Part shown: one piece after another, positions 24,591-42,048 of the stretch | Layout of the letters: each line of letters begins with the position of its first letter | Position numbering within the stretch: the first letter of the stretch is position 1 | The notes under the pieces: generated by a model | Database searches by the model: none | Told to the model about the DNA's origin: nothing | The model's input: only the letters and a program-made list of their open reading frames with translations | Assembly (NCBI GenBank): GCA_040905475.1 | Contig: JBBDRM010000032.1 | Span: 1-49,820, forward strand | Reading direction: 5' to 3' | DNA from: Actinomycetota bacterium | Lineage (GTDB): Bacteria; Actinomycetota; AC-67 | DNA: 49,820 bases | Program-made: the position numbers and the translations under genes

Positions 24591-25808
24591 GTGAAGAGTC
24601 CCGGCATCCGGATCGGAACGACGCTGCTCGCGTTCGCCTTGGCGTTCACCGCGTGCGGGCCGGCGTCGAAGACCGACCCGAAAAAGCTTCCCGAGCTGCC
24701 TACGACCCAGGCGGCGACCCTCGGCGCTTCGATGGAACTTCTCTTCCGAGAGCATGTCTACTTGCTCGGCATCTCGACCGAGAATGCGGTCACCGGTCAA
24801 ACGAAGGGTTTCGAGGCAGCGGTTGAAGCGCTCGAGCAGAACACGCTCGTGTTGGCCGATGAGTTCGAGAAGGCGTACGGCGATCGCGGGCAGAAAGGTT
24901 TCCTGACCGCCTGGCGCCCGTACATCGACCTGATCGGCCAGTACGCGAGCGGCAAGGCACGCAAGCTGGCGCTGCCGCTCGCCGACCGCACGTTCGCTCA
25001 GGCCGTCGGGAGGATCGCGTCCTTCGCAGGTGGCCTGACGCCGTTGATCAACCCGCGGGTGATGGGCGTGGACATGCGCGACGTCATGGGCGCCATCCGT
25101 GCCGCGGTGGACGCGCAGGTCGCGAAGGACTTCAAGAAGGCCGACGCTTCGCTGCGAACCGCAGCGAAGCTCGCGTCCGAAGTAGGAGCGGTCTTCGCGC
25201 GCGCGTTCGCCGACGACCTGCCCGCGATCTACCCCGGAGACCCGTCCAGTCCTGCGGCCGGTTTTCGTAGAACATTGGCGGCGCACCTGACCGACCACGT
25301 CTATCTCCTGGCGATGACCACCGAGAACATCCTCACGAAACAGTCCGGCCCGCGTGACGGCGCCAAAGCTGCGCTCGACGCGGTCTCAGCCGATCTCGGG
25401 AAGCAGATAGGCGCCTCGTACGGACCCGAGGCGGAGAAGGCGTTCGTGCCGGTGTGGAAGAGGCAGATCGATCTCCTCATCTCCTATGCCGGCACGGCGA
25501 CCGACAAGACGAAGCACGAGAAGGCGCGACAGGACCTCGAGCAGTTCGCGACCGACGCGGGGGCGTTCTTGGAGGGGCTGAACAAGGAGCTGGACAAATC
25601 GTCGATGGAGCAGATCATCGGCGGCCACGGCGACGCGATGACCCAGACGATCGACGCGCAGGTCGCCGGCGACTTCAAGAAGGCGGATCTGCGGCTCCGC
25701 GCTGCCATCCTGCAGATCGAGGCGCTGGGTCTCGCCCTCGCCAACGCCACGGTCCGGCGGTTCCCGGTCCGGTTCCAGCCGACCCCAACCGGCCTCGGCA
25801 CCCCCTAG
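24591..25808 (+). CDS. Helical lipoprotein with two HVYL...TEN repeats
   Basis: 405-aa lipoprotein (lipobox FTAC, Cys22; GTG start) made of two tandem copies of the domain found once in the preceding gene. Copy 1 has EHVYL at residues 54-58 and TEN at 63-65; copy 2 has DHVYL at 235-239 and TEN soon after, a spacing of about 181 residues. Each copy also carries G.EAA, A.GP/GD.....F...W...IDL, and a late D.QVA.DFKKAD.....A motif. The duplication implies the domain works as a unit. The stop TAG coincides with the left boundary of IS110 copy 1 but is also formed by the inferred uninterrupted target, so the insertion did not truncate the protein. Confidence 0.8.
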   Translation: MKSPGIRIGTTLLAFALAFTACGPASKTDPKKLPELPTTQAATLGASMELLFREHVYLLGISTENAVTGQTKGFEAAVEALEQNTLVLADEFEKAYGDRGQKGFLTAWRPYIDLIGQYASGKARKLALPLADRTFAQAVGRIASFAGGLTPLINPRVMGVDMRDVMGAIRAAVDAQVAKDFKKADASLRTAAKLASEVGAVFARAFADDLPAIYPGDPSSPAAGFRRTLAAHLTDHVYLLAMTTENILTKQSGPRDGAKAALDAVSADLGKQIGASYGPEAEKAFVPVWKRQIDLLISYAGTATDKTKHEKARQDLEQFATDAGAFLEGLNKELDKSSMEQIIGGHGDAMTQTIDAQVAGDFKKADLRLRAAILQIEALGLALANATVRRFPVRFQPTPTGLGTP

Positions 25809-25829
25809 ACATCCCACGTCTGGAAGCTG

Positions 25830-27043
25830 TCAAGCGGCGACCTCCTGCGAGGTGGGCCAAGCGAAGTCTTCGCGGTAGAGCTCTTGCTTGAGTAAACACG
25901 CGTCGAGGATGCCGACGAGCCGGTTCGCGAGCTGGCGGAGCGATTTGTGGTGTGTCTTTCCGCGGGCTCGGAGGGTGTCGTAGTAGCGGCGGGCTCCGGG
26001 TGAGCGTGTCAGCGACGCGAACGCCCACAAGTGACAGGCGTCGGCGAGATGGGTGTTGCGGGCGAACCGAGCCAGCACCACTCTTTTTGTTCCGGAGGCT
26101 TTGGTGATGGGCGCGGTTCCTGCGTAGGCCTTGCGTGCTCTAGCATCGGTGTAGCGGGTCCGGTCGTCGCCGAACTCGCCAAGCGCCCGGGCGCCGAGGA
26201 CATCGCCGAGTCCTGGGAGACTGAGGTAGATCTCGGCGTCCGGGTGGCTCCTAAAAGAGGCTTGCAGCTGCCCTTCGATCACGGCGACCTGCTCGACGAT
26301 CTCGCGCAGCACCGCGACGTTCGACCGCACCGCCGCAGCGTAGGCGTCTGCCAGCACCGCCGGCGCCTGGAGCTGCTCCGAGCGCAACGCCTCGGCGATC
26401 TCCGCCGCACGCTTGGCGACGTTGCGCTGACGTCCGCCCCGACGAAGCGCCGCGGCGATCTGCTTTTCCGACAGACGCCGTCCCAGCCTCGGCGAGGGCG
26501 CGCGCTCGAGCACGGCGAGTGCGTCGCGGTCGGCGAGATCCGAACCGAACGCATCCAGCGCCGCTGGATAGAACTCGCGCAGCTGGTTGCGCAGGCGGTT
26601 GGCTTGGCGCGTCCGGGAGGAGATCAGGTCCTTATGCGCCCTGGCCAGGACTTTGATCGCCTCGGAGAGATCGGAGTCGCCGGCGACGCGGCGATGGTGT
26701 GCCGGTCGGTGCGCACGATGTCGGCCAGCAGCTTCGCGTCGCCAGGATCGGACTTCGCGCCCGAGGTGGAATGCCGATCCCGGTAACGGTCGACCGACAG
26801 CGGATTGATCGCGTAGACGTCGTAGCCCGCCGCGACCAACGCACCCACAAGCAGACCACGATCGAGCTCGATGCCGATCGCGAGCTCTTCGTCATCACCG
26901 ACGTGGTCGGCGACGATGACATGCAGCCTCGCGACGCCCTCGATGCCGTCGGGGATCCGATCCTTGGCCAGCACGCGACCCGGCTCGTCCACCAGACACA
27001 GGTCGTGGTGTGCCTCGGCCCAGTCGATGCCAAGGAACTTCAC
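25830..27043 (-). pseudogene. IS110-family transposase, split by a -1 frameshift (copy 1)
   Basis: The N-terminal part (27043 to 26624 frame, starting MKFLGIDWAEAHHD) has the RuvC-like DEDD residues: D in GIDW, E in GIELDR, and DPGDA. The C-terminal part (25830 to about 26687, another frame) has the Tnp20 domain LPGLGDVLGARALGEFGD and the serine motif KASGTKR. Reading changes frame at about 26687: after ATC GCC GCG, one step back gives GTC GCC GGC GAC, which continues an ordinary IS110 sequence (VAGDSDLSEAIKVLARAHKD). No canonical slippery heptamer is visible, so I read this as a one-base loss, not programmed frameshifting. The identical lesion is in copy 2. Confidence 0.85.
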
Positions 27044-27267
27044 GGTGCTCTCCCTTCCGGGGAAGGACCGGACGGTTGAGCCAGAGGAGACCAGCAGCGA
27101 CCTAATGGATCAGTGCTCGAGGCACGACACCCCACCAGCCGTCCATCTCCCCAGCGACCGGCAGGAGCGCTGTCTAGGCGTAGGACTCGCGGTCCGGTTC
27201 CTCTCAGTGCTCTCCTGCCGGCGGCTCGGGAACAGTCTCCTACAGGAACCGCTGCGGTCCCATTAGT
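27044..27267 (-). ncRNA. Predicted bridge RNA region of IS110 copy 1
   Basis: The 224-bp 5' non-coding end of an IS110-group element is where the bridge RNA that pairs with donor and target DNA is known to be encoded. The sequence is strongly foldable: CCGGCAGGAG (27158-27167) pairs with CTCCTGCCGG (27212-27221) around a 44-nt loop that holds a smaller GGAC/GTCC hairpin, and CCTTCC/GGAAGG pair near 27053-27066. The exact ends of the RNA are not known. Confidence 0.55.
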
Positions 27268-27730: not shown

Positions 27731-28088
27731 TCATTCACCACAGCCTCCCGAACTTAAGCATGTTCACAAGAAACACCACGGTGACCTCGCGGCGAAGACG
27801 GCTGTACTTCGCGGGCCAACCAGCGCATGCCCCAGGATGAAGGGCACTACCAGAGCCAAGCACACGAGAAGAGAGATTCGTCGTGAGCCACGTTGGGATT
27901 GCTGCCCGACTAGTCTTCGGCGCATTCCGCATCCCCGAATCCATTAAGCCAGTAATGGCTTAGTTAACAGAACATGTCGGACACACTAGGAAGTGTGCAA
28001 GGGAAACTTCTCGCCGTGACTCTGGTGGCGACTCGGAACACTACATACTGTGTAGACCAGCATCTAGGGTGGCCCTCAGCATCCACGC
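27731..28088. other. 358-bp stretch with no convincing gene
   Basis: Only short frames without ribosome sites or recognisable domains. It contains a 6-bp hairpin (CACACT...AGTGTG, 27982-27997) and the 15-bp dyad described separately; it is probably the promoter region of the XRE gene plus decayed sequence. Confidence 0.5.
28041..28055 (+). promoter_or_regulatory. Candidate XRE operator (15-bp dyad)
   Basis: CTACA (28041-28045) and TGTAG (28051-28055) are inverted around TACTG, 33 bp upstream of the XRE ATG. The position suits autoregulation by the XRE protein. Short and unconfirmed. Confidence 0.35.
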
Positions 28089-28313
28089 ATGCGACGAGCC
28101 ACACTCCTTCGGCAGTTTGGCGTTCGCGTTCGAACTCTGAGAGAAGCCCGCGACCTCTCGCAGGAGCGGTTAGGGGAGCTCGCAGGACTCCATCGCAACT
28201 ACATCGGCGCGGTGGAGCGGGGGGAATACAACCCGACGCTCGTCAGTCAAGCCAAGATCGCCAAGGCTCTCGGTGTTTCTCTCTCTGAGTTACTCAAAGG
28301 GATCAAGGGGTAA
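28089..28313 (+). CDS. Small XRE-family helix-turn-helix regulator (C-protein-like)
   Basis: 74-aa single-domain regulator. The helix-turn-helix LSQERLGELAGLHRNYIGAVERG, then NPTLVSQAKIAKALGVSLSELLK, is the pattern of short Cro/CI-type proteins and of the C proteins that time expression of restriction-modification systems. It starts a compact run of small genes (next start 2 nt after its stop). Whether it controls the hsd operon 9 kb away or only its own cluster cannot be told; the palindrome in the hsd promoter does not look like the dyad in front of this gene. Confidence 0.85.
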   Translation: MRRATLLRQFGVRVRTLREARDLSQERLGELAGLHRNYIGAVERGEYNPTLVSQAKIAKALGVSLSELLKGIKG

Positions 28314-28315
28314 GG

Positions 28316-28423
28316 GTGGTGGCCGATATGGACGAGCTCACAAGAATCGGAGGCCCACCGAAGCCTGCGGTTCTTTCTGATTGCTTGACCGAGGAAGTGT
28401 CGCAGTGCGAATATCGGATCTGA
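28316..28423 (+). CDS. Tiny ORF (35 aa), function unknown
   Basis: Starts GTG GTG GCC GAT ATG (28316, 28319 or 28328), 2 nt after the XRE stop, with AAGGGG just upstream inside the XRE end. The product contains two Cys (SDCL and SQCE) and a GGPPKP stretch. No family recognised. It could be a real small peptide or a leader for the genes that follow. Confidence 0.4.
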   Translation: MVADMDELTRIGGPPKPAVLSDCLTEEVSQCEYRI

Positions 28424-28465
28424 ATCGTCGATCGCTTGCGCTCCTTCCAGAGAAAGGGGATCACA

Positions 28466-28609
28466 TTGGCCAAGCCGCCGAAGCCACTCAAGCCACCGCC
28501 GCCCCCACCGCGACCTGTTAGACACGGCACGACTGGAGGGCCTAACACTGGCAGCGGAAAGGGCAACGCGCACGCGGGCAAGGGCAATCCTCATGGTGGA
28601 AAGAGATGA
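28466..28609 (+). CDS. Pro/Gly-rich basic small peptide (47 aa)
   Basis: TTG-started frame with AAAGGGG upstream. The product is a Pro/Lys run (KPPKPLKPPPPPPRP) followed by a Gly/Asn/Lys/His-rich tail (GSGKGNAHAGKGN, HGGKR). It is low-complexity, basic, with no signal peptide or membrane helix. The last codons overlap the next gene by 4 nt (ATGA), which supports real translation. No homologue is known to me; it may be a disordered nucleic-acid-binding or toxin-like peptide. Confidence 0.5.
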   Translation: MAKPPKPLKPPPPPPRPVRHGTTGGPNTGSGKGNAHAGKGNPHGGKR

Positions 28610-28851
28610 CAGAACTCGACACCAAGGAGACCGGGCGGGTGATTCACGCGCTAGCCGCAGTCCGAGACTCTGAAGGATCCCCCCAAGCCGCGGCCGCGAA
28701 GCTGGGTATCTCCGAGGAACTCTTGTTGGCCACGCTGTCCGCGGTGAGCCCAAAGTTCTGTTCTCACGATGCAGACGGCGTCATCCGTCTGACCCCGATG
28801 GGATCGCGCTTCGCTGACCAGACGGGTGTGTTTCCCTGGGTGAATTGGTGA
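28606..28851 (+). CDS. Small helix-turn-helix-like protein, unknown
   Basis: 81-aa protein whose start overlaps the Pro/Gly-rich peptide stop (ATGA). The stretch GSPQAAAAKLGISEELLLATLSAV looks like a helix-turn-helix and VIRLTPMGSRFAD like a wing, so a small winged-helix DNA-binding protein is the best guess. It ends with WVNW. Probably co-transcribed with the XRE gene and the two tiny ORFs. Confidence 0.55.
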   Translation: MTELDTKETGRVIHALAAVRDSEGSPQAAAAKLGISEELLLATLSAVSPKFCSHDADGVIRLTPMGSRFADQTGVFPWVNW

Positions 28852-28987
28852 TGTCAGCTTAGATCCCAACCGAGAGAGTTCAGACGAGGATGGCCGGGCA
28901 CAGCGAGGCGACCACTCGTCAAGACGGCTTTTCAGCCTGGTTAACCCTCATCCCATAGCAATGACACGAATCGAGAAAGGAGGGCGC

Positions 28988-29407
28988 GTGGGGTTGTTCG
29001 ATCACAGCAAGACATGGCGCTTCTCGGTTCGAGCATCCTCATCTGACTGTCTTTCAGCGTTTGTAAACGCGTTCTCCGGGGGCTTTCACTTGGCTGCTGC
29101 TAAATGGCAAGTAGAACGCTCTGGCAACGAGGCAACCGCCACCTATCGTGGCAGAGCAGGAATCGGCAAGCTCGCTTCCTCTTTGTCCTCTCGTGCGGCC
29201 TCCGAAGAGGAGGGGGCGATTGGATCAGGAGTGTCGTTCACGGTGGAGGAAGACGAGAACGAGAGAAAGACTTGCGCGATGTGGCTGAGCACTAGTTCGA
29301 AACGTCTTGGATTTACATCGGATGCGCGCTTCTTCAGGCCGTACATGCGTGCGGTAGAAAGAAATCTTAGGAATCTCGATCCGACGCTCTCGCTCGCAAA
29401 GGATTAG
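28988..29407 (+). CDS. Hypothetical protein (139 aa)
   Basis: A strong ribosome site AAAGGAGGG lies 3-5 nt before GTG 28988, which decides this start over ATG 28961. The product (GLFDHSKTWRFSV..., W-containing, FRPYMRAVERNL near the C-terminus) has a mixed alpha/beta look and no signal peptide. Not recognised. Same strand as the XRE cluster, 136 bp after it. Confidence 0.6.
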   Translation: MGLFDHSKTWRFSVRASSSDCLSAFVNAFSGGFHLAAAKWQVERSGNEATATYRGRAGIGKLASSLSSRAASEEEGAIGSGVSFTVEEDENERKTCAMWLSTSSKRLGFTSDARFFRPYMRAVERNLRNLDPTLSLAKD

Positions 29408-29435
29408 AGCGGTAGCCGCTCGAACGCGAAGAGTC

Positions 29436-29519
29436 AACCCCATCCTCGTCAGCATCGCTCGGACAACTCAGGCGATCGGCGTTTCTCTCTCCGAGTTGCT
29501 CAAAGTGATTAGGGGATAG
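29436..29519 (+). pseudogene. Remnant of an XRE regulator gene (C-terminal 27 codons)
   Basis: Translation NPILVSIARTTQAIGVSLSELLK, then VIRG and a stop, mirrors the end of the XRE gene at 28089-28313 (NPTLVSQAKIAKALGVSLSELLK, GIKG, stop); the DNA is also similar (GTTTCTCTCTC.GAGTT.CTCAAAG). The helix-turn-helix part is missing, so this is a decayed partial copy. Confidence 0.7.
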
Positions 29520-29528
29520 TCTCGCGCT

Positions 29529-29813
29529 TCAGCGCGCGCTATCAGCAAGCGCCTTCCGAAGACCTTTCACCAGCCGTTCGTAGCGCTTCTCAAGCATGTT
29601 GATACGTTTAACGAGGCGGGCGTCGCCGCCCGATCTACTGCCGCGCCGGCGTCCTGCGAGCTCTCGCTGCGAAGGAACACCGTGTCGGCTGGTTCTGTGC
29701 CGGCCAAGCCCCATCGCGTGGGCGGCCTTGAAACCACACTCAGGACAGACGAACTTCGACGGACGGCGCTTGGTTGGTGACTTCTTCTTCGTCCCACGTT
29801 TACTCGCGGCCAT
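29529..29813 (-). CDS. Small C2H2 zinc-finger protein
   Basis: 94-aa basic protein with one classical C2H2 finger: C23-X2-C26-X12-H39-X4-H44 (FVCPECGFKAAH...RHRTSRHG). The N-terminus is very Lys/Arg-rich, and a C-terminal helix (RLVKRINMLEKRYERLVKGL) could be a coiled coil for dimerisation. GGGAGGAG precedes the ATG. Such single-finger proteins are uncommon in bacteria and mostly occur on mobile DNA, where they are thought to bind DNA. Same strand as the hsd/PHP genes, but 159 bp after the end of the ATPase gene. Confidence 0.8.
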   Translation of the reverse strand: MAASKRGTKKKSPTKRRPSKFVCPECGFKAAHAMGLGRHRTSRHGVPSQRELAGRRRGSRSGGDARLVKRINMLEKRYERLVKGLRKALADSAR

Positions 29814-29972
29814 GAGTCTCCTCCCAGCAAAATGAGTTTCCCCTTCAGACAGCTCCCTTGCCAGGCTTTCGGAACCGCGATGCGAAACCCAGCGCCTTGA
29901 GCGTCGCCGTTAGCGCTGGCCCCGCTGTCCCCGACAAGTCCTGCATGCGGTTTGTCCTCGTCGTGGAGACGT

Positions 29973-32693
29973 TCAGAATCCGTACTTGAGCTTTCGGCGC
30001 TCGAAGGCCTCGCGGCCGCCTTCAACATGGTAAAGAACAAGCTCGCGTGTTTCGAACCTATCCAGAGCACCCGTCTTCGTGACTCGCCCGGCGTGTGCGT
30101 CTGCATCCATCGCCAAGACTTGCTCAGCATCCGCAGAAACGAGAACGTTTCCGCTTCTGGTTGCGAAGAGGCATTGACGCGCCCCGCGGTCGCCGCGCAA
30201 GCGCGCGACTATGTATTCCTCAATCCACGGCGCGTGCAGTGCATCCTCCGGTTGATCCACGATGAGAGGGGCGTCACCCTGCGCGAGAGCGACCATTAAC
30301 ACCACTGTGCATTTCTGGCCATGGGCCAAGGCTTCCAGGTCTCGGTACTCTTGTTCCTCAACAGCGAACTGTATCCGCACGCCATCCTCGAGATCGACTA
30401 GTTGGAGTTCGTAGAGGTCCCCGAGACGATTGCGTTCGTGAATGGTCTCGTGTAGTCGCTGAAACACGCCTTGGGCAAGATCTGACTCCTGGGCGGGAGT
30501 GTCGAAGTCCTGCGTTAGGAGCGACTTCACGAATGGCACAGGATGAAGACGTTTCGCCATCGCCTTAACTTCGCCGTCCTGGATATGGGAACCAACACGA
30601 ATGGCGCTTAGGGCTTCGATGAAGGCCCGGTCATCAGCGTCTCCACGCACGGAAATACGGACTCGTCCGTCAAGGCGGTCAGTCAGTTCCTTTGCCTTAG
30701 AGGTACGCTTTCCACGGATCGCACGACGCGCCGTCTGCAGCTTGTCGAGGAGGCCTTCTCGCTCATGTTCGAGGGTCTTCACTTGCGGGCTCAGTTTCTC
30801 GTCCATCTGTTTGGCTGTCCGAAGGAGTTGCGTTTCCTTTTCTCTTAGCCGATTTAGCTTCTGGCTCAGCGAGGCAAGACCCTTGCCGTCAGTGTCGAGC
30901 TCCGTCAGGAGTCGCTGATACTCGTGTTCGGCACTCTCAAACAGTGGCTTCCACGTCGAGTGCAAGTCTTGAATCTGCTTCATGAGGTCAGTCACGTCTT
31001 TGTGGTAGGCGGACTTGTGCTTCTCCTTTGCCTTGGCGATGTCCTCTTCGACACGACGCAGCTTGCCCATGGCTTCGGTGTTTGGGGTCGCCGCGGGGAT
31101 AGTCCAGTCGGAATCTGGATGTGGAAACTCTTCATCGATAGCCCCGAGTAGTTCGGCGACTTGGTCGCTTGCGTTTTGAAAAGCGTCCTTCTCTTTGTAC
31201 CAGCCGGCGTGGCCCTTGACTTTTGGGTCCTCAAAGAAGCGAGAGAGAGCTTTGATCTGTTCTTGAATACCTGGGAGCTCTTTCACCTGCGTGGTTGCGT
31301 TTTCAATTTTCTTTCTTGTCTCGATGATGCTCTTCGCGTTCTCTCTCAGCTGAGACTTGAAATTCTTGATGGCGGAGCGTTCGGTATCGGTGTCGATCAA
31401 GTCATCGATTAGTGACAGGCGAGCCAGTGGCTCGCGTGCGTGTTCAATTACTTCGCCTTGGCTGAACCCCTTGATTGGTAAGAAGCTAGGTAGATGAACA
31501 GGTCCATCCACCAATTCAACATCGTTCTCGCCCAAGCGATACACGACTGGGTCGGAGGCTTCGCCGGCCTGCCAAGCTCTTTCGACCAGATACCGCTCGC
31601 CGCTCTTTCTAACAAGGACCCGAACGTTTGCCGCGTCTCCCATGGCAAAGCCGAGGAGCAGGTTCACATCGTCCGCTATGTTCGGAAGAACCGCCGCGGG
31701 AGTCTGTTGGTCGAGAGCGAATCGAATGAGTTCAAGGGTGAGCGATTTGCCCGCGCCCGTCCCTCCTATTAGGCAACTGATGTTGTCGTTGAAACGGAAG
31801 CGCTGCCCGTCAAGAAAGCCCCCGGTTACGGAGACTCCCTCGATCACCGCGGACGGCTCGACTCTGGTCTGAGACGCTAGACAGACATGAAGAGCCGGGT
31901 CGAGGAGCGCTTGACGCAATGCGTCAACCGACAGGTCATCCATCTTGATTAAGCAGTACCGGCCCCCGATCCCGTCGACGTGGTGTGAGTCGCTGTTCTC
32001 TGGCCAGCAGTCAGATCCTTGGATGCACGGCAACCGCCTCGCATCTCCAACATCTAACGTTCGAAATTGTTCCAACGCCTCAGCGGTCACAACTTCAAGC
32101 GCAACAATGTTTGGCGAAGCGTAGATCTGGTTGCGCCGAGTTCGAGATCCCTCGGTCATTCTCCAGAAGCCTTTTGGTTGATCCACGTGCGCGGCAATCG
32201 CGAGACCGCCTGCTTCTTCTACCTTCTTAGCGATCTCGTCGATACGACCAGACGCTAGGACTTCAGGCCTACCGAAATCCGCCTGCGAGATGCCACAGCG
32301 AATCAGGAGTTCCTTGATCGTCTGGGCAGCAGTCTTTGGGTCAAAGATTCCGAGAAGGTGCCCCTCACTAGTGGAGATCTCAACGCCCGGGAACACTGCC
32401 AGTTGGGTCCCTTTAGCCGCTTCCCGGACGGAGTCGCACCAGTCGGCGGAGTTGTGGTCGGTAACCGCGATGACATCGATTCCCTTCTTGAGAGCGTGTT
32501 CGACAACATCTGAAGGCTTGGCATCCTTCCACTTTGCGTTCACGTCGGGTGACGCGGGAGTATGAACGTGGAGGTCTACCATGCGGAAGATCGCTCCACT
32601 GGACAGCGAAAGTATTGCACGGGCGTCATCGAATGCTCCCGTGCTCGACGCCACGTCGCCCTTGCCGGCAGCCTTCTTGGGTGCGGGCGTCAT
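29973..32693 (-). CDS. PHP-domain / SMC-like ATPase (TrlF-type), candidate defence protein
   Basis: 906-aa fusion. The N-terminal PHP phosphoesterase has its metal motifs: DLHVHT (H42, H44), VTDHN, FPGVEIS, AAHVD and GSDCW...SHH. An ABC/SMC-type ATPase follows, with Walker A IGGTGAGKS (Lys about residue 316), a long coiled-coil middle with many KE.. heptads, and a late Walker B/D-loop VDQPEDAL. This matches the TrlF family of AAA-like ATPases, often seen beside type I restriction genes. I start at ATG 32693, where AGAGGAAG lies upstream; GTG 32765 is in frame but has no ribosome site. It lies 99 bp after hsdR on the same strand and may be read from the hsd promoter. Its own biochemical role is inferred, probably nucleic-acid cleavage. 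Confidence 0.88.
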   Translation of the reverse strand: MTPAPKKAAGKGDVASSTGAFDDARAILSLSSGAIFRMVDLHVHTPASPDVNAKWKDAKPSDVVEHALKKGIDVIAVTDHNSADWCDSVREAAKGTQLAVFPGVEISTSEGHLLGIFDPKTAAQTIKELLIRCGISQADFGRPEVLASGRIDEIAKKVEEAGGLAIAAHVDQPKGFWRMTEGSRTRRNQIYASPNIVALEVVTAEALEQFRTLDVGDARRLPCIQGSDCWPENSDSHHVDGIGGRYCLIKMDDLSVDALRQALLDPALHVCLASQTRVEPSAVIEGVSVTGGFLDGQRFRFNDNISCLIGGTGAGKSLTLELIRFALDQQTPAAVLPNIADDVNLLLGFAMGDAANVRVLVRKSGERYLVERAWQAGEASDPVVYRLGENDVELVDGPVHLPSFLPIKGFSQGEVIEHAREPLARLSLIDDLIDTDTERSAIKNFKSQLRENAKSIIETRKKIENATTQVKELPGIQEQIKALSRFFEDPKVKGHAGWYKEKDAFQNASDQVAELLGAIDEEFPHPDSDWTIPAATPNTEAMGKLRRVEEDIAKAKEKHKSAYHKDVTDLMKQIQDLHSTWKPLFESAEHEYQRLLTELDTDGKGLASLSQKLNRLREKETQLLRTAKQMDEKLSPQVKTLEHEREGLLDKLQTARRAIRGKRTSKAKELTDRLDGRVRISVRGDADDRAFIEALSAIRVGSHIQDGEVKAMAKRLHPVPFVKSLLTQDFDTPAQESDLAQGVFQRLHETIHERNRLGDLYELQLVDLEDGVRIQFAVEEQEYRDLEALAHGQKCTVVLMVALAQGDAPLIVDQPEDALHAPWIEEYIVARLRGDRGARQCLFATRSGNVLVSADAEQVLAMDADAHAGRVTKTGALDRFETRELVLYHVEGGREAFERRKLKYGF

Positions 32694-32792
32694 CGGGTCT
32701 TCCTCTTTCTCATGGGAGTCCGCTCGCTTGCTGACGACTCTGGCCTTCAAGGCCCAGCGCGTCACTGAATTGCCGTTCGGTTTGGACTGCCC

Positions 32793-35747
32793 TCACGAAG
32801 CTTCCTTGCCGCTGGTGTCGTAGGTCACGGCGAAGATTGAATCAGACAACCACCTCTTGAACGATTCGTTGTCGCTGAACTGTTTGAAGAGCTCGGTGTC
32901 GTCCTTGAGGACTGCATTCATCACGCGCCCGAGCGCCTTGTCGTGCTCGATGCGCGCGTTTTGCTTGTCGTTATTCTTTTGCGCGTTGATGTAGGCACGA
33001 TCTGCCGCGACTCTCGAAGGGATATCTTCCGTAATTAGCCGTTGGACTCGATCGGTATCGCTCCACTCGATGTTCCCAAACTGGTCGTTGAACGCCTTGA
33101 GAATGTTAGACAGCGTGTCGATCGCGGGCTCTGGCTTCCGCCCGCCGGCAGAGGTCGGCACGGGTCCTATCTCTGAATCTTCATCGGGTAGCACGATCTT
33201 CATGGCCGCCTTCCTCTCGACTCGGTAGCTATCCATGTCGATCGTCTCGATGATGCCGCGAGAGAGATCCTCTTCCTTGGGCGCGGGAAGTTTCGGAACG
33301 AGGAAGTTGAGGAATATCGAGAGCTTTTCCCAGTCAGCGTTCGAAAAGGGAAGGACTGCGGCCAAGAATCCGTAAGTTCGCGTGAAGGTCTTGGCTTTGC
33401 CTTTGAACTCGACCTGCGCGTCCTCGTCGAGTTGCTCGTTGTAGGTTGCAACGCAAGCGTCGAGGATCGGGTCGAGTTGATCGCGGTCGGCGTTGCCCAG
33501 ATAGAGGCTGACGAACTCGTCAACCTGCACTTGCGAATACACTTCCCTTTGATCTAACTCAGTTCGTATGTCATGAAGCTTGTTCGGGTCGGTTTCGTCG
33601 CTCAAGATCGTCGTTCGATAATAGGGAGCGAAGGCGGTTTCGATCGTCTCGACGTCGTTCATGAAGTCAAGGACAAACACGTCGTATTTCTGGGGGTGCG
33701 CTCTGTTCAAGCGCGACAACGTCTGCACAGCCTTGACGCCGCTTAAGGGCTTGTCCACGTACATCGTGTGGAGCAACGGCTCGTCGTAGCCCGTTTGGAA
33801 CTTGTCTGCGCAGATGAGGAAGCGGTACGGATCTTGCTGAATTCGGTCTGCGATGTCTCGGCTTGCGAACCCATTTAGAGACGCTTCCGTGACCTTGGTT
33901 CCTCTGAACTCGTGCTCGCCGGAAAACGCAACGATCGCCTTGAGCGGGCTCTTCCGTTCCCCCAAGTAGTCGCGGAAAGCAAAGTAGTACTGGATCGCGC
34001 GTTCGATGCCACTTGTAACGACCATAGCGCGGGCCTGGCCACCGATCTTGTTCAGCGCAAGAACCTGGTCGTGAAAATGATCGACCATGATTTCCGACTT
34101 CAAGCGGATGGCATGATCGTTGCTCTCGACGTAACGACGGAGCTTCTTGTTGGCCCGTCGCGCGTCAAACTCCGGGTCACTTTCAACCGTCTTCACCAGC
34201 TTGTAGTAGCTGTTCACCGACGTGTAGCTCTTAAGCACGTCGAGAATGAAACCCTCTTGCACGGCCTGCTTCATCGTGTAGCTATGAAACGGTATATGTT
34301 TCGCCTTGTCGTTCTCCGGCTTGCGCTCGCCAAATAGCTCAAGCGTCTTGTTTTTCGGCGTCGCCGTGAACGCGTAATAAGTTGCGTTCGGAAGCATCTT
34401 GCGCGCTTCCATGATCCGATTGATCTTGTCCTCGACGGTTTCGTCTTGTTCTTCGGCACCAACCTCGGAGAGTGCGGTGCTCATTGCAGCCGAGGCCTTG
34501 CCTCCCTGGCTGGAGTGTGCTTCGTCGATGATGATGGCGAACGTTCGCTCGCGGTGCTCCTTGCCGATGTCGTCCAGGACGAAGGGGAACTTCTGAACCG
34601 TCGTAATGATTATCTTCTTTCCTCCGGCGAGAAACTTCTTCAGGTCGCCGGATCGCTCGGCATGTCCGACCGTTGAACTGACTTGAGCGAACTGCTTAAT
34701 GGTGTCGCGAATCTGCTGGTCCAGAAGGACGCGATCTGTTACGACGACTATCGAGTCGAAAACCTTCCTATCTTTGCGCTCCAACCCGATTAACTGATGC
34801 GCGAGCCACGCGATGGAGTTGGACTTCCCGCTTCCTGCCGAGTGCTCAATCAGATATCGATGGCCCGCCCCGCGCTCGCCACCGTGGGCCAGCAATCGCC
34901 TGACAACGTCGAGTTGGTGATACCGAGGGAAGATCTGAGTCGAGCTCTTCTTCCCCGTTCGTTGGTCCTTTACCGCAACCACCTGTGCGTAGTTCTCCAG
35001 GATGTCGGTCAATCCGTGAGGGCTGAAAATCTTCTTCCAGAGGTAGTCGGTCTTGAGACCCTCGGGGTTCGGGGGATTGCCGGCGCCGTCTTGCCAGCCC
35101 ATATCGAAAGGAAGGAACCAAGATCGCTTGCCTTGCAGGTGTGTAGTGAACTTCACCAGTTGGTCATCTAGCGCGAGGTGCACAATGCAGCGCCCAAATT
35201 GAAAGAGAAGTTCGCGAGGATCGCGATCGCGTCTGTATTGCTCAACAGCATCCTCGACGGTTTGCTTCGTCAGATTGTTCTTCAACTCGAAGGTCGCGAT
35301 GGGAAGGCCGTTGATGAAGAGGCAAAGGTCGAGAGCAAGCTGTGTCTCGTCTCGGCTGTAACGAAGTTGTCGAGTAACACTGAATCGGTTTTCCTCGAAA
35401 CGTTCAACGGCCTTGATGTTTCCCGGTGAGGGTGTTCCATAGAAGAGGTCGATGTGATGTGCGCCATGGTCGATTCCGCGGCGAAGAACGTCGATGACTC
35501 CGCGCTTTGCGATCTCTCCCTGAAGTCGCGTCAGGAATTTCTGCCGTGTCGGCGAATCATTCTTGAGGTCAAGAGCTTCAAGAACCGTTGGCTGCGTGTC
35601 GCCGAAAAACAGTCTGAGGTGGACGAGGTCTAGGGCGTGTTCACGGTCGTAGTCTCGCGGATCGCCGAGCCACCAACCGCCATGCGTTGATGTCATGAAT
35701 TCGACGATGAGAGTCTCAAGCCCCTTCTCGCTTGTATCCGTCGTCAT
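32793..35747 (-). CDS. hsdR: Type I restriction endonuclease, R (translocase/nuclease) subunit
   Basis: 984-aa HsdR that translocates and cuts unmethylated DNA as part of the R2M2S complex. N-terminal PD-(D/E)xK nuclease with D140 and E154-L-K156 (FELKN); superfamily 2 helicase with Walker A SAGSGKS (K308) and DEAH at 408-411; later motif SRLNRAHPQ (motif VI). Full length for the family, no disruption seen. Its ATG overlaps the hsdS stop by 4 nt. Last of the three hsd genes in the order M-S-R. Confidence 0.96.
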   Translation of the reverse strand: MTTDTSEKGLETLIVEFMTSTHGGWWLGDPRDYDREHALDLVHLRLFFGDTQPTVLEALDLKNDSPTRQKFLTRLQGEIAKRGVIDVLRRGIDHGAHHIDLFYGTPSPGNIKAVERFEENRFSVTRQLRYSRDETQLALDLCLFINGLPIATFELKNNLTKQTVEDAVEQYRRDRDPRELLFQFGRCIVHLALDDQLVKFTTHLQGKRSWFLPFDMGWQDGAGNPPNPEGLKTDYLWKKIFSPHGLTDILENYAQVVAVKDQRTGKKSSTQIFPRYHQLDVVRRLLAHGGERGAGHRYLIEHSAGSGKSNSIAWLAHQLIGLERKDRKVFDSIVVVTDRVLLDQQIRDTIKQFAQVSSTVGHAERSGDLKKFLAGGKKIIITTVQKFPFVLDDIGKEHRERTFAIIIDEAHSSQGGKASAAMSTALSEVGAEEQDETVEDKINRIMEARKMLPNATYYAFTATPKNKTLELFGERKPENDKAKHIPFHSYTMKQAVQEGFILDVLKSYTSVNSYYKLVKTVESDPEFDARRANKKLRRYVESNDHAIRLKSEIMVDHFHDQVLALNKIGGQARAMVVTSGIERAIQYYFAFRDYLGERKSPLKAIVAFSGEHEFRGTKVTEASLNGFASRDIADRIQQDPYRFLICADKFQTGYDEPLLHTMYVDKPLSGVKAVQTLSRLNRAHPQKYDVFVLDFMNDVETIETAFAPYYRTTILSDETDPNKLHDIRTELDQREVYSQVQVDEFVSLYLGNADRDQLDPILDACVATYNEQLDEDAQVEFKGKAKTFTRTYGFLAAVLPFSNADWEKLSIFLNFLVPKLPAPKEEDLSRGIIETIDMDSYRVERKAAMKIVLPDEDSEIGPVPTSAGGRKPEPAIDTLSNILKAFNDQFGNIEWSDTDRVQRLITEDIPSRVAADRAYINAQKNNDKQNARIEHDKALGRVMNAVLKDDTELFKQFSDNESFKRWLSDSIFAVTYDTSGKEAS

Positions 35748-37126
35748 GCCGAGACCTCTTCCAGGCCCTCTTCAAGCTCGCCGAGATTCTCGTCCTCATC
35801 GTCCTCCAGCGCATGGTTCGGCTGGTCCAACGCTTCGGGCAGTTCCTTTGCCGCCTGGCGAACGTCGAGTTTGCCGGTGACGACATCGGCAATAAGACGA
35901 TCCCGATACTCTCGAAGCAGTTCTATCTCTCGTTCGCAAAAAGATAGTTGGCGGTCCAGCTTCTCGAATGCGCGATCAAGATGTGAGGCGATCGCTGTCT
36001 GTTCCGGTAACGGAGGAAGAGGCACTCGGACGTTCTTGAGCCACGGCGTATGGATGTCGCGTTGGATATCGCCGACACCTTTGGATGACGTTACAAACTG
36101 AGCGACCATTACCCGCGACTTGAACAGATAGTCCGCGTAACGTCGATCAAGACCACTGCTCAGAGCGAGTACAACGTAGGCTGGGCTGACTATTCCGTGA
36201 TATGCGGAAACTCCAACTGACCCCCGCCAGGCCTGCTGATTGTTGAGAACCAGATCGCCGGCGTGAACAACCTGGTAGTTGGACAGGTCGAGACTCGGTT
36301 TGTGGACTTGCCCTCCTCCTTCGCCATAACGGATCACGCCTCTGCCAAGAAAGACCGAAAGAAGATCCAGACCAGAGGCATTTCTCTCGGAACGAATTCG
36401 GGCAAGGGTCCAGAGTCGCGCAGTGTCCCATTCAGCGCTAATTCCAAATACCGGCGTCGACAGCATAGGTCGCAGGTGTTTAGAACCGCTTAGACCACGC
36501 GTGATCGCGCGATAAACGATGGCTTGCTTGCGCTCGTTCAATAGCGCGATCAACTGCCTTTTCCCGCGGATGTAACTTTCAATCCGATGCCTCAAGTGGT
36601 TCAAGAACCGGACGATATTCAGTTGCTCACTGGGCGAGGGCACCACCGAAGGGACACGATAAAATGCCTTTGTATATAGGGGCATCATGCCGTCGCCTAC
36701 ACCGTAGCTCTCAGCAAGAAAGGCGGCTTTGTAGGGTTCCGACGCGAAGAGGCTGGCGTAGAAAGCAGTATTCGCAGATGCCGTGGGAGCGAACACTGAA
36801 TAGTTCGCAGTTATGAGCCCGCGCTCCACCGCGCACGCGAACAATCCGGCGTGTGCCTGGTACTTATTCATTACCAAATCGCCAGGATGGGCAACCGAGA
36901 ACGCGACCGATTGCGCCGTTGAGCCCGCCTTACCAAGCGCAGCGCTGCGAATCAGACCGTGATGGCGAGACATTGACATCTTAGGTTCAGTACCGTCGAC
37001 ATCGTGTCTCGTCACGGCTCGGAACAGTCTCCGGACCGGCCATATTTCCCAGTGCTCAGGCACTCTCCCAAGCCACGGCGAACCCGAGTCTTTGTAGACG
37101 GGATAGGGCTTGATGGTTCGGATCAT
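35744..37126 (-). CDS. hsdS: Type I restriction-modification specificity subunit
   Basis: 460-aa HsdS with two target-recognition halves. Each half starts in the usual way (PWLGRVPEHWE near residue 17; a second near AEWDTARLWTLARI) and the second ends with the conserved helix LPPLPEQTAIASHLD, then IELLREYRDRLIADVVTGKLDV. The two TRDs set the bipartite recognition sequence, which cannot be read from the protein by eye. Start and stop overlap its neighbours by 4 nt (ATGA). The Glu/Asp-rich C-terminal tail is unusual but harmless-looking. Confidence 0.94.
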   Translation of the reverse strand: MIRTIKPYPVYKDSGSPWLGRVPEHWEIWPVRRLFRAVTRHDVDGTEPKMSMSRHHGLIRSAALGKAGSTAQSVAFSVAHPGDLVMNKYQAHAGLFACAVERGLITANYSVFAPTASANTAFYASLFASEPYKAAFLAESYGVGDGMMPLYTKAFYRVPSVVPSPSEQLNIVRFLNHLRHRIESYIRGKRQLIALLNERKQAIVYRAITRGLSGSKHLRPMLSTPVFGISAEWDTARLWTLARIRSERNASGLDLLSVFLGRGVIRYGEGGGQVHKPSLDLSNYQVVHAGDLVLNNQQAWRGSVGVSAYHGIVSPAYVVLALSSGLDRRYADYLFKSRVMVAQFVTSSKGVGDIQRDIHTPWLKNVRVPLPPLPEQTAIASHLDRAFEKLDRQLSFCEREIELLREYRDRLIADVVTGKLDVRQAAKELPEALDQPNHALEDDEDENLGELEEGLEEVSA

Positions 37127-39108
37127 CGCAGGTCTTCCCCGACGATCTCGTCAAGAAGTCCCTCGGTTTCTTTCTCTAACGCGACGATGTCGGCCCGAAC
37201 CTCCTCGAGGGTGCGGAGAGGTTGCGGCTTATAGAAGTAGCGAGCAAAGCGGATTTCGTAGCCCACCTTGACGTTTGCCGAGTCATACCAGGCCTTAGCG
37301 TCATGAGGAAGCACTTCGCGGCGAAGGAATGCTTCGACCCCGCCTTCTTCAAGGCATGAAACTTGCTCCGAATCACGCAAGTCGTTGTCCGGTTCGTATT
37401 CGACCACACTCAGCTTGCCTGCGATCGTGGCTTCAAACAAACCTCGAATGGGATCAGGTTCGACCTTGCCAGGCTTGTGAATCCTCTTTATTACTGGAGG
37501 CGCGGCTTCATCCCGCTCCCCAGTCTCTCTTAACACCCTGATCTCCTTCGGTGTGTATGCACGTTCCGTATCGATGCCCTTCACCCGCAGCGGTCGTTCA
37601 ACGGTAGCTTTCCAGTACCCGAAAGCTTCATTGGGGAAGATTCTAGACTCCTCGGTTTCTTTGAAATCCATGAAGGTACTGGTAATGCGATCAATATCCT
37701 CGGGCGCTAATTCGCAGTTCTTCTTTCCAAGATTTTTTCGGAGAGACTTGTACCAGCGCGTGGCGTCGATCAATTGCACGCTTCCTTTGCGATTCTCAGC
37801 CTTGCGATTACTCAATACCCAGACGTACGTCGCGATGCCCGTGTTGTAGAACATGTTTAGGGGTAGCGCCACGATTGCTTCAAGCCAATCGCTTTCTATG
37901 ATCCAGCGACGGATGTTGCTCTCTCCTTGACCCGCATCCCCGGTAAAAAGGGATGAGCCATTGTGTACTTCAGCTATCCGACTCCCAAGTTTCGTTTTCG
38001 TCTTCATTTTCGACAGCAGGTTTGCCAGAAAGAGCATCTGACCGTCGCTCGATCTAGTGATTAGAGAGTACTCAGGGTCATCAAAACGTTCGATCAGAAA
38101 CCGCGGGTCCCTGATTCCAGTCTTGCCTCCCATGCGTTCCAGGTCCGTCTTCCAACTCTTGCCGTACGGGGGATTCGAAAGCATGAAGTCGAACTCGCGG
38201 GACGGAAAGGCGTCGTTCGAAAGAGTTGAGTACTCGGGACCGCCCACGATGTTGTCAGCCGCTTCACCTTCACCCTTGAGTAGCAGATCCGCCTTGCAGA
38301 TTGCGTAGGTCTCTGCGTTGATCTCCTGGCCGTACAAATGCGTTGCGACTTGTTTTCCGTGCTGCGAAGCCAAGTCGCGAAGAGTGTCTTCGGCCACCGT
38401 AAGCATGCCGCCCGTTCCCGCCGCACCGTCATAGAGAAGGTAAGTGCCAGACTCAATCTTGTCCGCAATAGGCATGAAGATGAGTCGCGCCATGAGCTTG
38501 ACGGCATCGCGCGGGGTCCAGTGCTCACCTGCCTCTTCGTTGTTCTCTTCGTTGAAGAGACGTATTAACTCCTCGAACACGGTGCCCATCCCATGGTTGT
38601 CGAGACCCGGATGCTTTTCTGAACCATTTGGATTGAGTACCGGATTCGGGCTCAAGTTGATCGAGGGATCGAGAAGCTTCTCGATCAAAGAACCGAGTGC
38701 GTCCGCTTTCGATAGTTTCGGAATCTGGTTACGAAACTCGAAGTTGTCGAGGATCTCTTGCACGTTCGGAGAGAATCCATCGAGGTATGCCTCGAAGTCG
38801 GCGCGGAGCTGCTGCTGGCTTGCGCGGGAACGAAGGTCGCGCAGCGTGAATTTCGACGTGTTGTAGAACGCCTGGTCGGCAGCTTGCCTGAGGGCGGCAT
38901 CTTGGTTCGTGATCCGCGACTTGTCGAGCTTGGCCTTCATGTCGAGTACCGCCTGCTTCGTCGACTCAAGAACAGCGTCGAGACGGCGGAGCACGGTCAT
39001 CGGCAAGATGACATCGCGGTACTTGCCTCTACCAAAGAGGTCGCGGAGTACGTCGTCAGCGATTCCCCAAATCAAGCTAACGATCTTGTTGTATTGGTTT
39101 TCGTTCAT
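37123..39108 (-). CDS. hsdM: Type I restriction-modification N6-adenine methyltransferase subunit
   Basis: 661-aa HsdM. N-terminal four-helix domain (IVSLIWGIADDVLRDLFGRGKYRDVILP), SAM motif AAGTGG near residue 230 and catalytic NPPY near residue 312 show an N6-adenine methylase. It is longer than the roughly 500-aa classical HsdM, with an extra C-terminal region. GAGGAG lies 5 nt before the ATG. First gene of the hsd operon, with a clear promoter upstream. Confidence 0.95.
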   Translation of the reverse strand: MNENQYNKIVSLIWGIADDVLRDLFGRGKYRDVILPMTVLRRLDAVLESTKQAVLDMKAKLDKSRITNQDAALRQAADQAFYNTSKFTLRDLRSRASQQQLRADFEAYLDGFSPNVQEILDNFEFRNQIPKLSKADALGSLIEKLLDPSINLSPNPVLNPNGSEKHPGLDNHGMGTVFEELIRLFNEENNEEAGEHWTPRDAVKLMARLIFMPIADKIESGTYLLYDGAAGTGGMLTVAEDTLRDLASQHGKQVATHLYGQEINAETYAICKADLLLKGEGEAADNIVGGPEYSTLSNDAFPSREFDFMLSNPPYGKSWKTDLERMGGKTGIRDPRFLIERFDDPEYSLITRSSDGQMLFLANLLSKMKTKTKLGSRIAEVHNGSSLFTGDAGQGESNIRRWIIESDWLEAIVALPLNMFYNTGIATYVWVLSNRKAENRKGSVQLIDATRWYKSLRKNLGKKNCELAPEDIDRITSTFMDFKETEESRIFPNEAFGYWKATVERPLRVKGIDTERAYTPKEIRVLRETGERDEAAPPVIKRIHKPGKVEPDPIRGLFEATIAGKLSVVEYEPDNDLRDSEQVSCLEEGGVEAFLRREVLPHDAKAWYDSANVKVGYEIRFARYFYKPQPLRTLEEVRADIVALEKETEGLLDEIVGEDLR

Positions 39109-39198
39109 GTGACTCCTCTGCGCGCACGTTCACGACCGCTCAGCAGAATACAGATCGGGTGCGACATCGTCGGCACGGAGCCGTAACGCGCTGCTTCG

Positions 39199-39227
39199 AT
39201 GATAGAGAGAACGTACGTTCGATTCAA
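39199..39227 (-). promoter_or_regulatory. hsd operon promoter with a LexA-box-like operator in the spacer
   Basis: On the minus strand: -35 TTGAAT (39222-39227), exactly 17 bp, then -10 TATCAT (39199-39204). The spacer holds the perfect 12-bp palindrome GAACGTACGTTC (39209-39220), which fits the GAAC-N4-GTTC core of LexA operators in actinobacteria and Bacillus. The predicted transcript would start about 80 nt before hsdM. Promoter call is firm by pattern; the identity of the repressor is inferred. Confidence 0.65.
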
Positions 39228-39251
39228 GGGGAAGCTGAATTCTTGCGCCGA

Positions 39252-40235
39252 TCAGACCTCGGCTGGCTCCTCGGCGTCGACGTAGTAGAGCAGCTCCATC
39301 TTCAAGTCGTCAGTGACGAACGCTCGCTTGATGATGTCGCTTATTTTGGGCTTCGCGAAGAGACCGATTCTGATTCCTTCGCCGCCAACATAGCGGAGGC
39401 GTGCCACGTTCCAGAGTTGCTTGAACAACTCATTAGCCATCGCAACGAAGGGGAGAGCCTCATCGATGTTCACCCACTTCGTGCTTTGATTCCAACGCGA
39501 CCCGCCGTTGGCGGTTTTCAGGACTTCGAGGAACATGATCGACGGTCCCTCGGCTCCTACGATCTTTCCGTCTCCGAGCTTGAACATCGACTCGCCGGCC
39601 ATCAGCGCGAGTCCATGTTTCGCGGCGTTGTACACGTTTGCATCGTCGAGCAGCAGACGCGCGAGGTAGCGAAGGAACGACTCGATGTTCGCAGGACCAT
39701 CGTTCCACTCTGCCTCTGGCATCGGTGGACCGGAAAAATCCTCGCGCTTCTCATGTCCGTAGAACAGACGCGGGAGCCGAGCCCGCGCCTCATCGAAGTC
39801 GAGATCAACGAAACGCTTCTTCAACTTCGACTTGAATCTAGCGAAGTTTCGCTCGCGTGAGAGTTCGAGCCATGGGCACCGCGGCATCGCCTCATGGACA
39901 AGGTACATTCGGAGCAGCGTCTCGCTGACGTGATGAAGCAAGAAGGCTGCATCCACAACGACGAACTTCTTGTATCGATCGCTGTCTTCATCGCCCAGTT
40001 CGCCTTCCTCCTCCCGATAGACCTTGAGACCACCGACCGTGAGCCCTTGGGCAAAGATGGGATCGATGTCGTCGGGCTTCGTCATCAACATGAGCAGCTT
40101 TAGGCGCATGTCGAAGTACTGAAACGGCTTCATCATGTAGAAGTACTTGTTGAGCTCAGCGAAGTTCTCCGGCGCAAGCAGCCGGTCCGCATCGTCGACC
40201 GGCTTGGGTTTTCTCTGTTGCTTGTTTGAGCTCAT
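39252..40235 (-). CDS. Unknown 327-aa protein with RX4H motif, upstream of hsd operon
   Basis: Not recognised. A largely helical protein: the helix containing LLHHVSETLLRMYLVHE carries R109-X4-H114, the form of the HEPN ribonuclease motif, and later YNAAKHG. The charged N-terminal tail is Lys/Gln-rich. ATG 40235 has GGAG 5 nt upstream; GTG 40241 is an alternative. It lies directly upstream of the hsd promoter on the same strand, so it is likely transcribed separately and then into hsd. An abortive-infection-type RNase role is possible but rests on one short motif. It ends 9-10 codons after an acidic DAEEPAEV tail. Confidence 0.65.
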   Translation of the reverse strand: MSSNKQQRKPKPVDDADRLLAPENFAELNKYFYMMKPFQYFDMRLKLLMLMTKPDDIDPIFAQGLTVGGLKVYREEEGELGDEDSDRYKKFVVVDAAFLLHHVSETLLRMYLVHEAMPRCPWLELSRERNFARFKSKLKKRFVDLDFDEARARLPRLFYGHEKREDFSGPPMPEAEWNDGPANIESFLRYLARLLLDDANVYNAAKHGLALMAGESMFKLGDGKIVGAEGPSIMFLEVLKTANGGSRWNQSTKWVNIDEALPFVAMANELFKQLWNVARLRYVGGEGIRIGLFAKPKISDIIKRAFVTDDLKMELLYYVDAEEPAEV

Positions 40236-40344
40236 GAGCACTCCGATCTAAGAACTTCTCTTCGAGTATCAAGTTTAGAACGACCGCGTTTCGTGAACGA
40301 GGATTTTCAGCGGGGCCTTGAGCTCGTTCCGCGCGCACAAGAAG

Positions 40345-40364
40345 AGACTCGCTTTCGCGAGTCT
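40345..40364. terminator. 8-bp hairpin between unknown gene and IS110 copy 2
   Basis: AGACTCGC (40345-40352) and GCGAGTCT (40357-40364) form a perfect stem with a TTTC loop, in the 277-bp gap upstream of the RX4H gene. No other feature is visible in this gap apart from GCCCCTAGAAAC at 40380-40391, an inverted match to a site near the other end of the island. Confidence 0.45.
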
Positions 40365-40538
40365 TGGGGGTCACTTCTCGCCCCTAGAAACAAGGCGCTT
40401 CCTCAGTCGGACGGGCAGACGCATGGCTCGAACGCGCAAGTGCTCGCCGTAAGGCCATCTGTCTTCTACTCTGCGTTTCAGAATCCGCATGATGCTCTCG
40501 AATACTGGAGCGCCTAGACATCCCACGTCTGGAAGCTG

Positions 40539-41752
40539 TCAAGCGGCGACCTCCTGCGAGGTGGGCCAAGCGAAGTCTTCGCGGTAGAGCTCTTGCTTGA
40601 GTAAACACGCGTCGAGGATGCCGACGAGCCGGTTCGCGAGCTGGCGGAGCGATTTGTGGTGTGTCTTTCCGCGGGCTCGGAGGGTGTCGTAGTAGCGGCG
40701 GGCTCCGGGTGAGCGTGTCAGCGACGCGAACGCCCACAAGTGACAGGCGTCGGCGAGATGGGTGTTGCGGGCGAACCGAGCCAGCACCACTCTTTTTGTT
40801 CCGGAGGCTTTGGTGATGGGCGCGGTTCCTGCGTAGGCCTTGCGTGCTCTAGCATCGGTGTAGCGGGTCCGGTCGTCGCCGAACTCGCCAAGCGCCCGGG
40901 CGCCGAGGACATCGCCGAGTCCTGGGAGACTGAGGTAGATCTCGGCGTCCGGGTGGCTCCTAAAAGAGGCTTGCAGCTGCCCTTCGATCACGGCGACCTG
41001 CTCGACGATCTCGCGCAGCACCGCGACGTTCGACCGCACCGCCGCAGCGTAGGCGTCTGCCAGCACCGCCGGCGCCTGGAGCTGCTCCGAGCGCAACGCC
41101 TCGGCGATCTCCGCCGCACGCTTGGCGACGTTGCGCTGACGTCCGCCCCGACGAAGCGCCGCGGCGATCTGCTTTTCCGACAGACGCCGTCCCAGCCTCG
41201 GCGAGGGCGCGCGCTCGAGCACGGCGAGTGCGTCGCGGTCGGCGAGATCCGAACCGAACGCATCCAGCGCCGCTGGATAGAACTCGCGCAGCTGGTTGCG
41301 CAGGCGGTTGGCTTGGCGCGTCCGGGAGGAGATCAGGTCCTTATGCGCCCTGGCCAGGACTTTGATCGCCTCGGAGAGATCGGAGTCGCCGGCGACGCGG
41401 CGATGGTGTGCCGGTCGGTGCGCACGATGTCGGCCAGCAGCTTCGCGTCGCCAGGATCGGACTTCGCGCCCGAGGTGGAATGCCGATCCCGGTAACGGTC
41501 GACCGACAGCGGATTGATCGCGTAGACGTCGTAGCCCGCCGCGACCAACGCACCCACAAGCAGACCACGATCGAGCTCGATGCCGATCGCGAGCTCTTCG
41601 TCATCACCGACGTGGTCGGCGACGATGACATGCAGCCTCGCGACGCCCTCGATGCCGTCGGGGATCCGATCCTTGGCCAGCACGCGACCCGGCTCGTCCA
41701 CCAGACACAGGTCGTGGTGTGCCTCGGCCCAGTCGATGCCAAGGAACTTCAC
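40539..41752 (-). pseudogene. IS110-family transposase, split by the same -1 frameshift (copy 2)
   Basis: Identical to copy 1: the DEDD half reads from 41752 and the Tnp20 half from about 41396 down to 40539 in another frame. The shared lesion means either both copies descend from one already-broken element, mobilised in trans or multiplied by recombination, or the element tolerates frameshifting. Confidence 0.85.
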
Positions 41753-41976
41753 GGTGCTCTCCCTTCCGGGGAAGGACCGGACGGTTGAGCCAGAGGAGAC
41801 CAGCAGCGACCTAATGGATCAGTGCTCGAGGCACGACACCCCACCAGCCGTCCATCTCCCCAGCGACCGGCAGGAGCGCTGTCTAGGCGTAGGACTCGCG
41901 GTCCGGTTCCTCTCAGTGCTCTCCTGCCGGCGGCTCGGGAACAGTCTCCTACAGGAACCGCTGCGGTCCCATTAGT
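41753..41976 (-). ncRNA. Predicted bridge RNA region of IS110 copy 2
   Basis: Same sequence as in copy 1, with the CCGGCAGGAG/CTCCTGCCGG stem at 41867-41876 and 41921-41930. If expressed, both copies make the same guide RNA. Confidence 0.5.
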
Positions 41977-42048
41977 CCCTTCGGCCGAGGACGAACCCTC
42001 CGGATGATGGGGGCGTTCCCTCGATGGGTCGGCTAGCGTTGAAATGGT

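Follow-up and report, generated by a model that had tools for sequence, protein, structure and literature searches.

In the window, i.e., the whole 49,820-nucleotide stretch of DNA analyzed here, we identified a candidate LexA-type operator within the predicted promoter of an island-borne type I restriction operon. Judging from the sequence of this site and of the host's own SOS-type boxes, host LexA is likely to repress the island hsdM-hsdS-hsdR-TrlF operon, with RecA-triggered LexA cleavage releasing it. The features concerned are listed in Table 1.

Table 1. Features of the hsd island and its surroundings (positions in the window).
Feature	Position	Strand	Remarks
IS110-type element, copy 1	25804..27267	-	Identical to copy 2
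XRE/C-protein-like regulator, small	28089..28313	+	PADLOC control-protein models, E 1.6e-19
TrlF-family PHP-AAA ATPase	29973..32765	-	Last gene of putative operon; NF045780, above its cut-off
hsdR, type I restriction subunit	32793..35747	-	GSGKS, DEAH and ELK motifs; start overlaps hsdS stop by 4 bases
hsdS, type I specificity subunit	35744..37126	-	Start overlaps hsdM stop by 4 bases
hsdM, type I DNA methyltransferase	37123..39108	-	661 aa; NPPY motif
hsdM ribosome-binding site AGAGGAG	39113..39119	-	From sequence
hsdM promoter TTGAAT-17-TATCAT	39199..39227	-	Predicted; operator inside spacer; 91-119 bp 5' of hsdM ATG
Candidate LexA-type operator, 12-bp core palindrome GAACGTACGTTC	39209..39220	-	Fits CGAAC-RNRY-GTTC; 17.6 bits
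Upstream gene, no named family	39252..40235	-	Same strand as hsdM
Weak LexA-like site	40252..40263	-	13.1 bits; between TTGATA and TAGATC; 5' of upstream gene
IS110-type element, copy 2	40513..41976	-	

On the minus strand, the -35 hexamer (39227-39222) and the -10 hexamer (39204-39199) of the predicted hsdM promoter are separated by the 17-base spacer CGAACGTACGTTCTCTC, and this spacer holds the perfect palindrome GAACGTACGTTC, exactly as claimed in a first-pass annotation made from the sequence alone. Transcription is predicted to start approximately 7 bases past the -10, giving a leader of approximately 85 bases. The same annotation described the palindrome as an ideal GAAC-N4-GTTC repressor site. 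The core agrees with this description, but "ideal" overstates the match, in that one half-site is TCGAAC while the other is GTTCTC, with TC in place of the outer GA (not GTTCGA), and the score falls at the low end of the host sites. At a splB-like site of the same genome, the outer G is likewise missing from one half-site. In its extended form the candidate operator reads TCGAACGTACGTTCTC (39207-39222), and it overlaps the predicted promoter such that LexA would block RNA polymerase. The hsdM promoter was the sole promoter-like site in a scan of positions 28000-42000, where 3.2 were expected in shuffled sequences, a result that is not significant alone.

The palindrome also lies 31-42 bases past the stop codon of the upstream gene, a location at which it might act as an RNA or terminator element of that gene. 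This reading is extremely unlikely, however, given that the palindrome forms a stem of only four pairs, that the fold is weak (-8.3 kcal/mol for 67 nt), and that it has no T run and is absent from the terminator list. That list contains no terminator-like site at all between the upstream gene and hsdM, so read-through from the upstream gene could bypass LexA. The only relatives found for the upstream gene are distant and carried on Rhodococcus plasmids, with none amongst viral contigs. The weak LexA-like site located 5' of this gene may be due to chance or may be a weak second operator.

The assignment of the hsd site to LexA depends on the boxes that the host itself uses. The genome carries a single lexA (C152, 247 bits) and one clear recA (C57). 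The lexA gene is divergent from a gene for a small LysM protein, an arrangement known from yneA/divS-type division inhibitors, and the promoter common to the two has TCGAACAGTCGTTCGA and TCGAACAGAGGTTCGG as well as a third, weaker box. The recA promoter box is CCGAACAGGTGTTCGG. Because the lexA/LysM and recA promoters carry such boxes, the host box can be assigned to the GAAC-N4-GTTC type; it is the same type as the hsd site, rather than another type that would have spoken against LexA. This match supports the proposal of the first-pass annotation that the hsd operon would be under SOS-type (LexA) control. Furthermore, host LexA retains AAGG, GDSM and the VK lysine, which are features of self-cleavage. 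Spacer layouts like that of hsd were found at recA (TTGACT-17-TACCTT), lexA/LysM (TTGACA-18-TAGGGT) and dprA (TGGACA-17-TAGTCT), and the box also lies in the -35/-10 spacer, with weaker hexamers, at the dnaE2, splB-like and exonuclease genes; by comparison, 0.3% of positions picked at random are surrounded by a promoter of this kind.

The recognition motif of Streptomyces venezuelae LexA is tCGAAC-N4-GNNCGa, and a box bound by this protein, that of dnaE2-1 (TCGTACGTACGTTC; PMC9380542), has a core that nearly equals that of hsd. The LexA, the SOS gene set and the relatives of the present host suggest that it, too, is an actinobacterium. Like the S. venezuelae SOS box (PMC9380542), the hsd site has a GAAC-N4-GTTC core, one full TCGAAC half-site and an RNRY center; unlike it, the second half-site lacks the outer GA and the site drives a type I restriction operon. 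Neither "restriction" nor "methyltransferase" appears as a word in the main text of that study (PMC9380542).

The bare core GAAC-N4-GTTC is weak evidence, because three copies were found in the window against 0.98 expected. The genome-wide scan, which used pattern matching and not a matrix, gave a clearer picture with the longer pattern CGAAC-RNRY-GTTC: 15 distinct sites were found in the 4.24-Mb genome, compared with two per strand for the reversed control, and 11 of them fall between called genes. The neighbours of these intergenic sites include recA, dprA, mraZ and hsd, together with a dnaE2-like operon (DUF6504-PHP), a radical SAM gene resembling splB and an exonuclease/GIY-YIG (UvrC-like) gene. 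When GAACN4GTTC had to be followed by TANNNT within 1-6 bases, nine sites were obtained (control, one per strand), including those at recA, lexA/LysM, dprA, the exonuclease/UvrC-like gene and hsd. In relatives from the same family, the box again adjoins recA, lexA/LysM, dnaE2 and the exonuclease gene. On other contigs of the same genome (L062 and L067), LexA-type boxes are present 5' of mraZ, in a cell-division cluster, and of dprA, which suggests that mraZ and dprA are under SOS control in this organism. Elsewhere in the genome (L058), a phage-type integrase gene and a LAGLIDADG-like gene flank another LexA-type box, which may mark a mobile element tuned to SOS.

To score the strength of the hsd site, we derived a matrix from seven SOS-type sites of the host, leaving hsd out. 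Its 17.6 bits were the top score in the window (the next was 13.1) and fell inside the range of 14.6-24.6 bits that the seven host sites gave in leave-one-out scoring. It is nevertheless conceivable that an ordinary promoter has a spacer that is palindromic by accident. A random sequence of genome size is expected to contain 6.75 sites, i.e., approximately seven, of at least 17.6 bits, and the site at hsdM is kept by no relative. For the 143-bp gap before hsdM, however, the chance is approximately 0.0002 (143 x 6.75/4.24 Mb), a figure that is supportive rather than exact, as are the scores, because the matrix sites were preselected for GAAC-N4-GTTC and the gene caller and promoter matching were simple. 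An accidental palindrome would also need to fall within a promoter spacer and to share the register seen in SOS promoters of the host, and we regard such an accident as improbable. The genome has only one other exact copy of GAACGTACGTTC, at C65:15738; with 10.5 bits and no operator-like look, it was rejected as an operator.

Conservation was assessed in 109 hsdM relatives, comprising 80 cross-phylum loci and 29 from the same phylum. None of the 109 had an exact or strong box directly 5' of hsdM, and this holds even for a same-family hsdM that is 81% identical; one cross-phylum locus (L089) has a single exact core 297 bp upstream of hsdM, with a low score. The hsd site is therefore a local feature, and LexA-type wiring of hsdM appears to be rare amongst relatives. 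This missing conservation lowers the support for LexA control, yet conservation is no requirement for a target that was acquired with an island.

A second link between a LexA-type box and hsdM was found in a distant member of the phylum (L025, reverse complement 235-3983), whose hsdM is 43% identical. There, a DUF222-HNH gene is followed by hsdM and hsdS, with a 21.4-bit LexA-type box approximately 35-47 bases before the start of the DUF222-HNH gene and hsdM beginning 22 bases after its stop. This box is the only site that strong in 750 kb of hsd loci, and three more DUF222-HNH genes of the same genome have a box upstream. The hsdM of this locus may thus be a passenger in a unit under LexA control. 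With a LexA operator at hsdM in one case and an hsdM behind a LexA-boxed DUF222-HNH gene in the other, it is an evenly balanced question whether type I restriction operons can, more generally, join the host SOS regulon, such that single-stranded DNA sensed by RecA arms restriction.

The hsd operon, the XRE gene and the upstream gene all lie between two identical IS110-type copies of 1464 bp each, situated 14,709 bp apart; in both copies, the transposase is divided between two frames (139 and 227 aa). Because these copies bracket it, the operator sits on the island, but its sequence fits the host repressor. C proteins control many restriction systems, and the island encodes a candidate of its own, the XRE protein, which matches PADLOC control-protein models. 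Moreover, a C-family protein appears to repress the type I hsd operon of Mycoplasma gallisepticum (PMC12707154), which, like the arrangement proposed here, places a repressor at the operon promoter. The palindrome is nonetheless unlikely to be the operator through which the XRE protein controls the hsd operon. The dyad preceding the XRE gene, TAAGCCA-GTAA-TGGCTTA (27945-27962), differs from GAACGTACGTTC, as the first-pass annotation had observed, and the two were rejected as one and the same motif, i.e., as a common C-protein operator. In addition, the XRE gene and the operator are approximately 11 kb apart, the gene being on the opposite strand and close to the other end of the island, and the hsd site fits the host LexA matrix. 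Unlike in C-protein systems, the best-fitting repressor here is host LexA and not an island protein.

The operon that LexA would control encodes a type I system, in which HsdM, HsdS and HsdR are linked and the catalytic motifs of HsdM and HsdR are intact. Since hsdM, hsdS and hsdR overlap and the TrlF-family gene comes next, one promoter could serve all four genes. The TrlF-family gene more likely starts at 32693, at an ATG after an AGGA site. Its product also resembles the anti-phage protein Ppl. Gene order, overlaps and intact motifs are as in type I hsdM-hsdS-hsdR operons with a linked PHP-AAA (TrlF-family) gene; the apparent LexA control of the promoter distinguishes this operon from the others. 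The earlier suggestion that methylation might lead restriction could not be upheld as something readable from the sequence: each hsd gene overlaps the next, and all three would be raised jointly, so no head start for methylation can be discerned.

From the observed site, its promoter position, the host boxes and the motifs, we infer binding, repression, induction and a benefit as follows. LexA dimers on 39207-39222 would cover the hsdM promoter spacer and hold down the expression of hsdM-hsdS-hsdR and of the TrlF-like gene. RecA filaments would form on single-stranded DNA arising from damage, phage DNA ends or incoming conjugative or transforming strands, and the resulting LexA self-cleavage would lead to higher expression of the whole hsd operon. 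The benefit would presumably be a low basal cost, with methylation and restriction stepped up whenever the cell contains broken or foreign DNA.

The literature searched, which consisted mainly of open papers, yielded no account of a type I hsd operon under LexA control. LexA operators and type I systems are each well known, and their direct combination would be the new part. In E. coli, symE encodes a LexA-repressed, SOS-induced toxin whose family occurs in islands with restriction-modification operons (PMC1891008); it resembles the present case in the SOS control of a gene in such islands, but LexA controls a toxin there and not the hsd genes. In E. coli, DNA damage reduces type I restriction at the post-translational level and independently of LexA (PMC11109961). 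This damage biology (less restriction) runs counter to a damage-induced hsd operon (PMC11109961), although alleviation of the E. coli type and LexA control of hsd could both be present together.

Taken together, the candidate operator and its match to the host boxes indicate that the defence operon is probably expressed more strongly in response to damage or invading DNA. The hsd promoter offers a simple and direct way to examine whether restriction can be armed by SOS. If the proposed control is real, a mobile defence island would be tied to the damage alarm of its host, with restriction rising in the presence of broken DNA or foreign single strands, in contrast to E. coli, where damage relaxes type I restriction.
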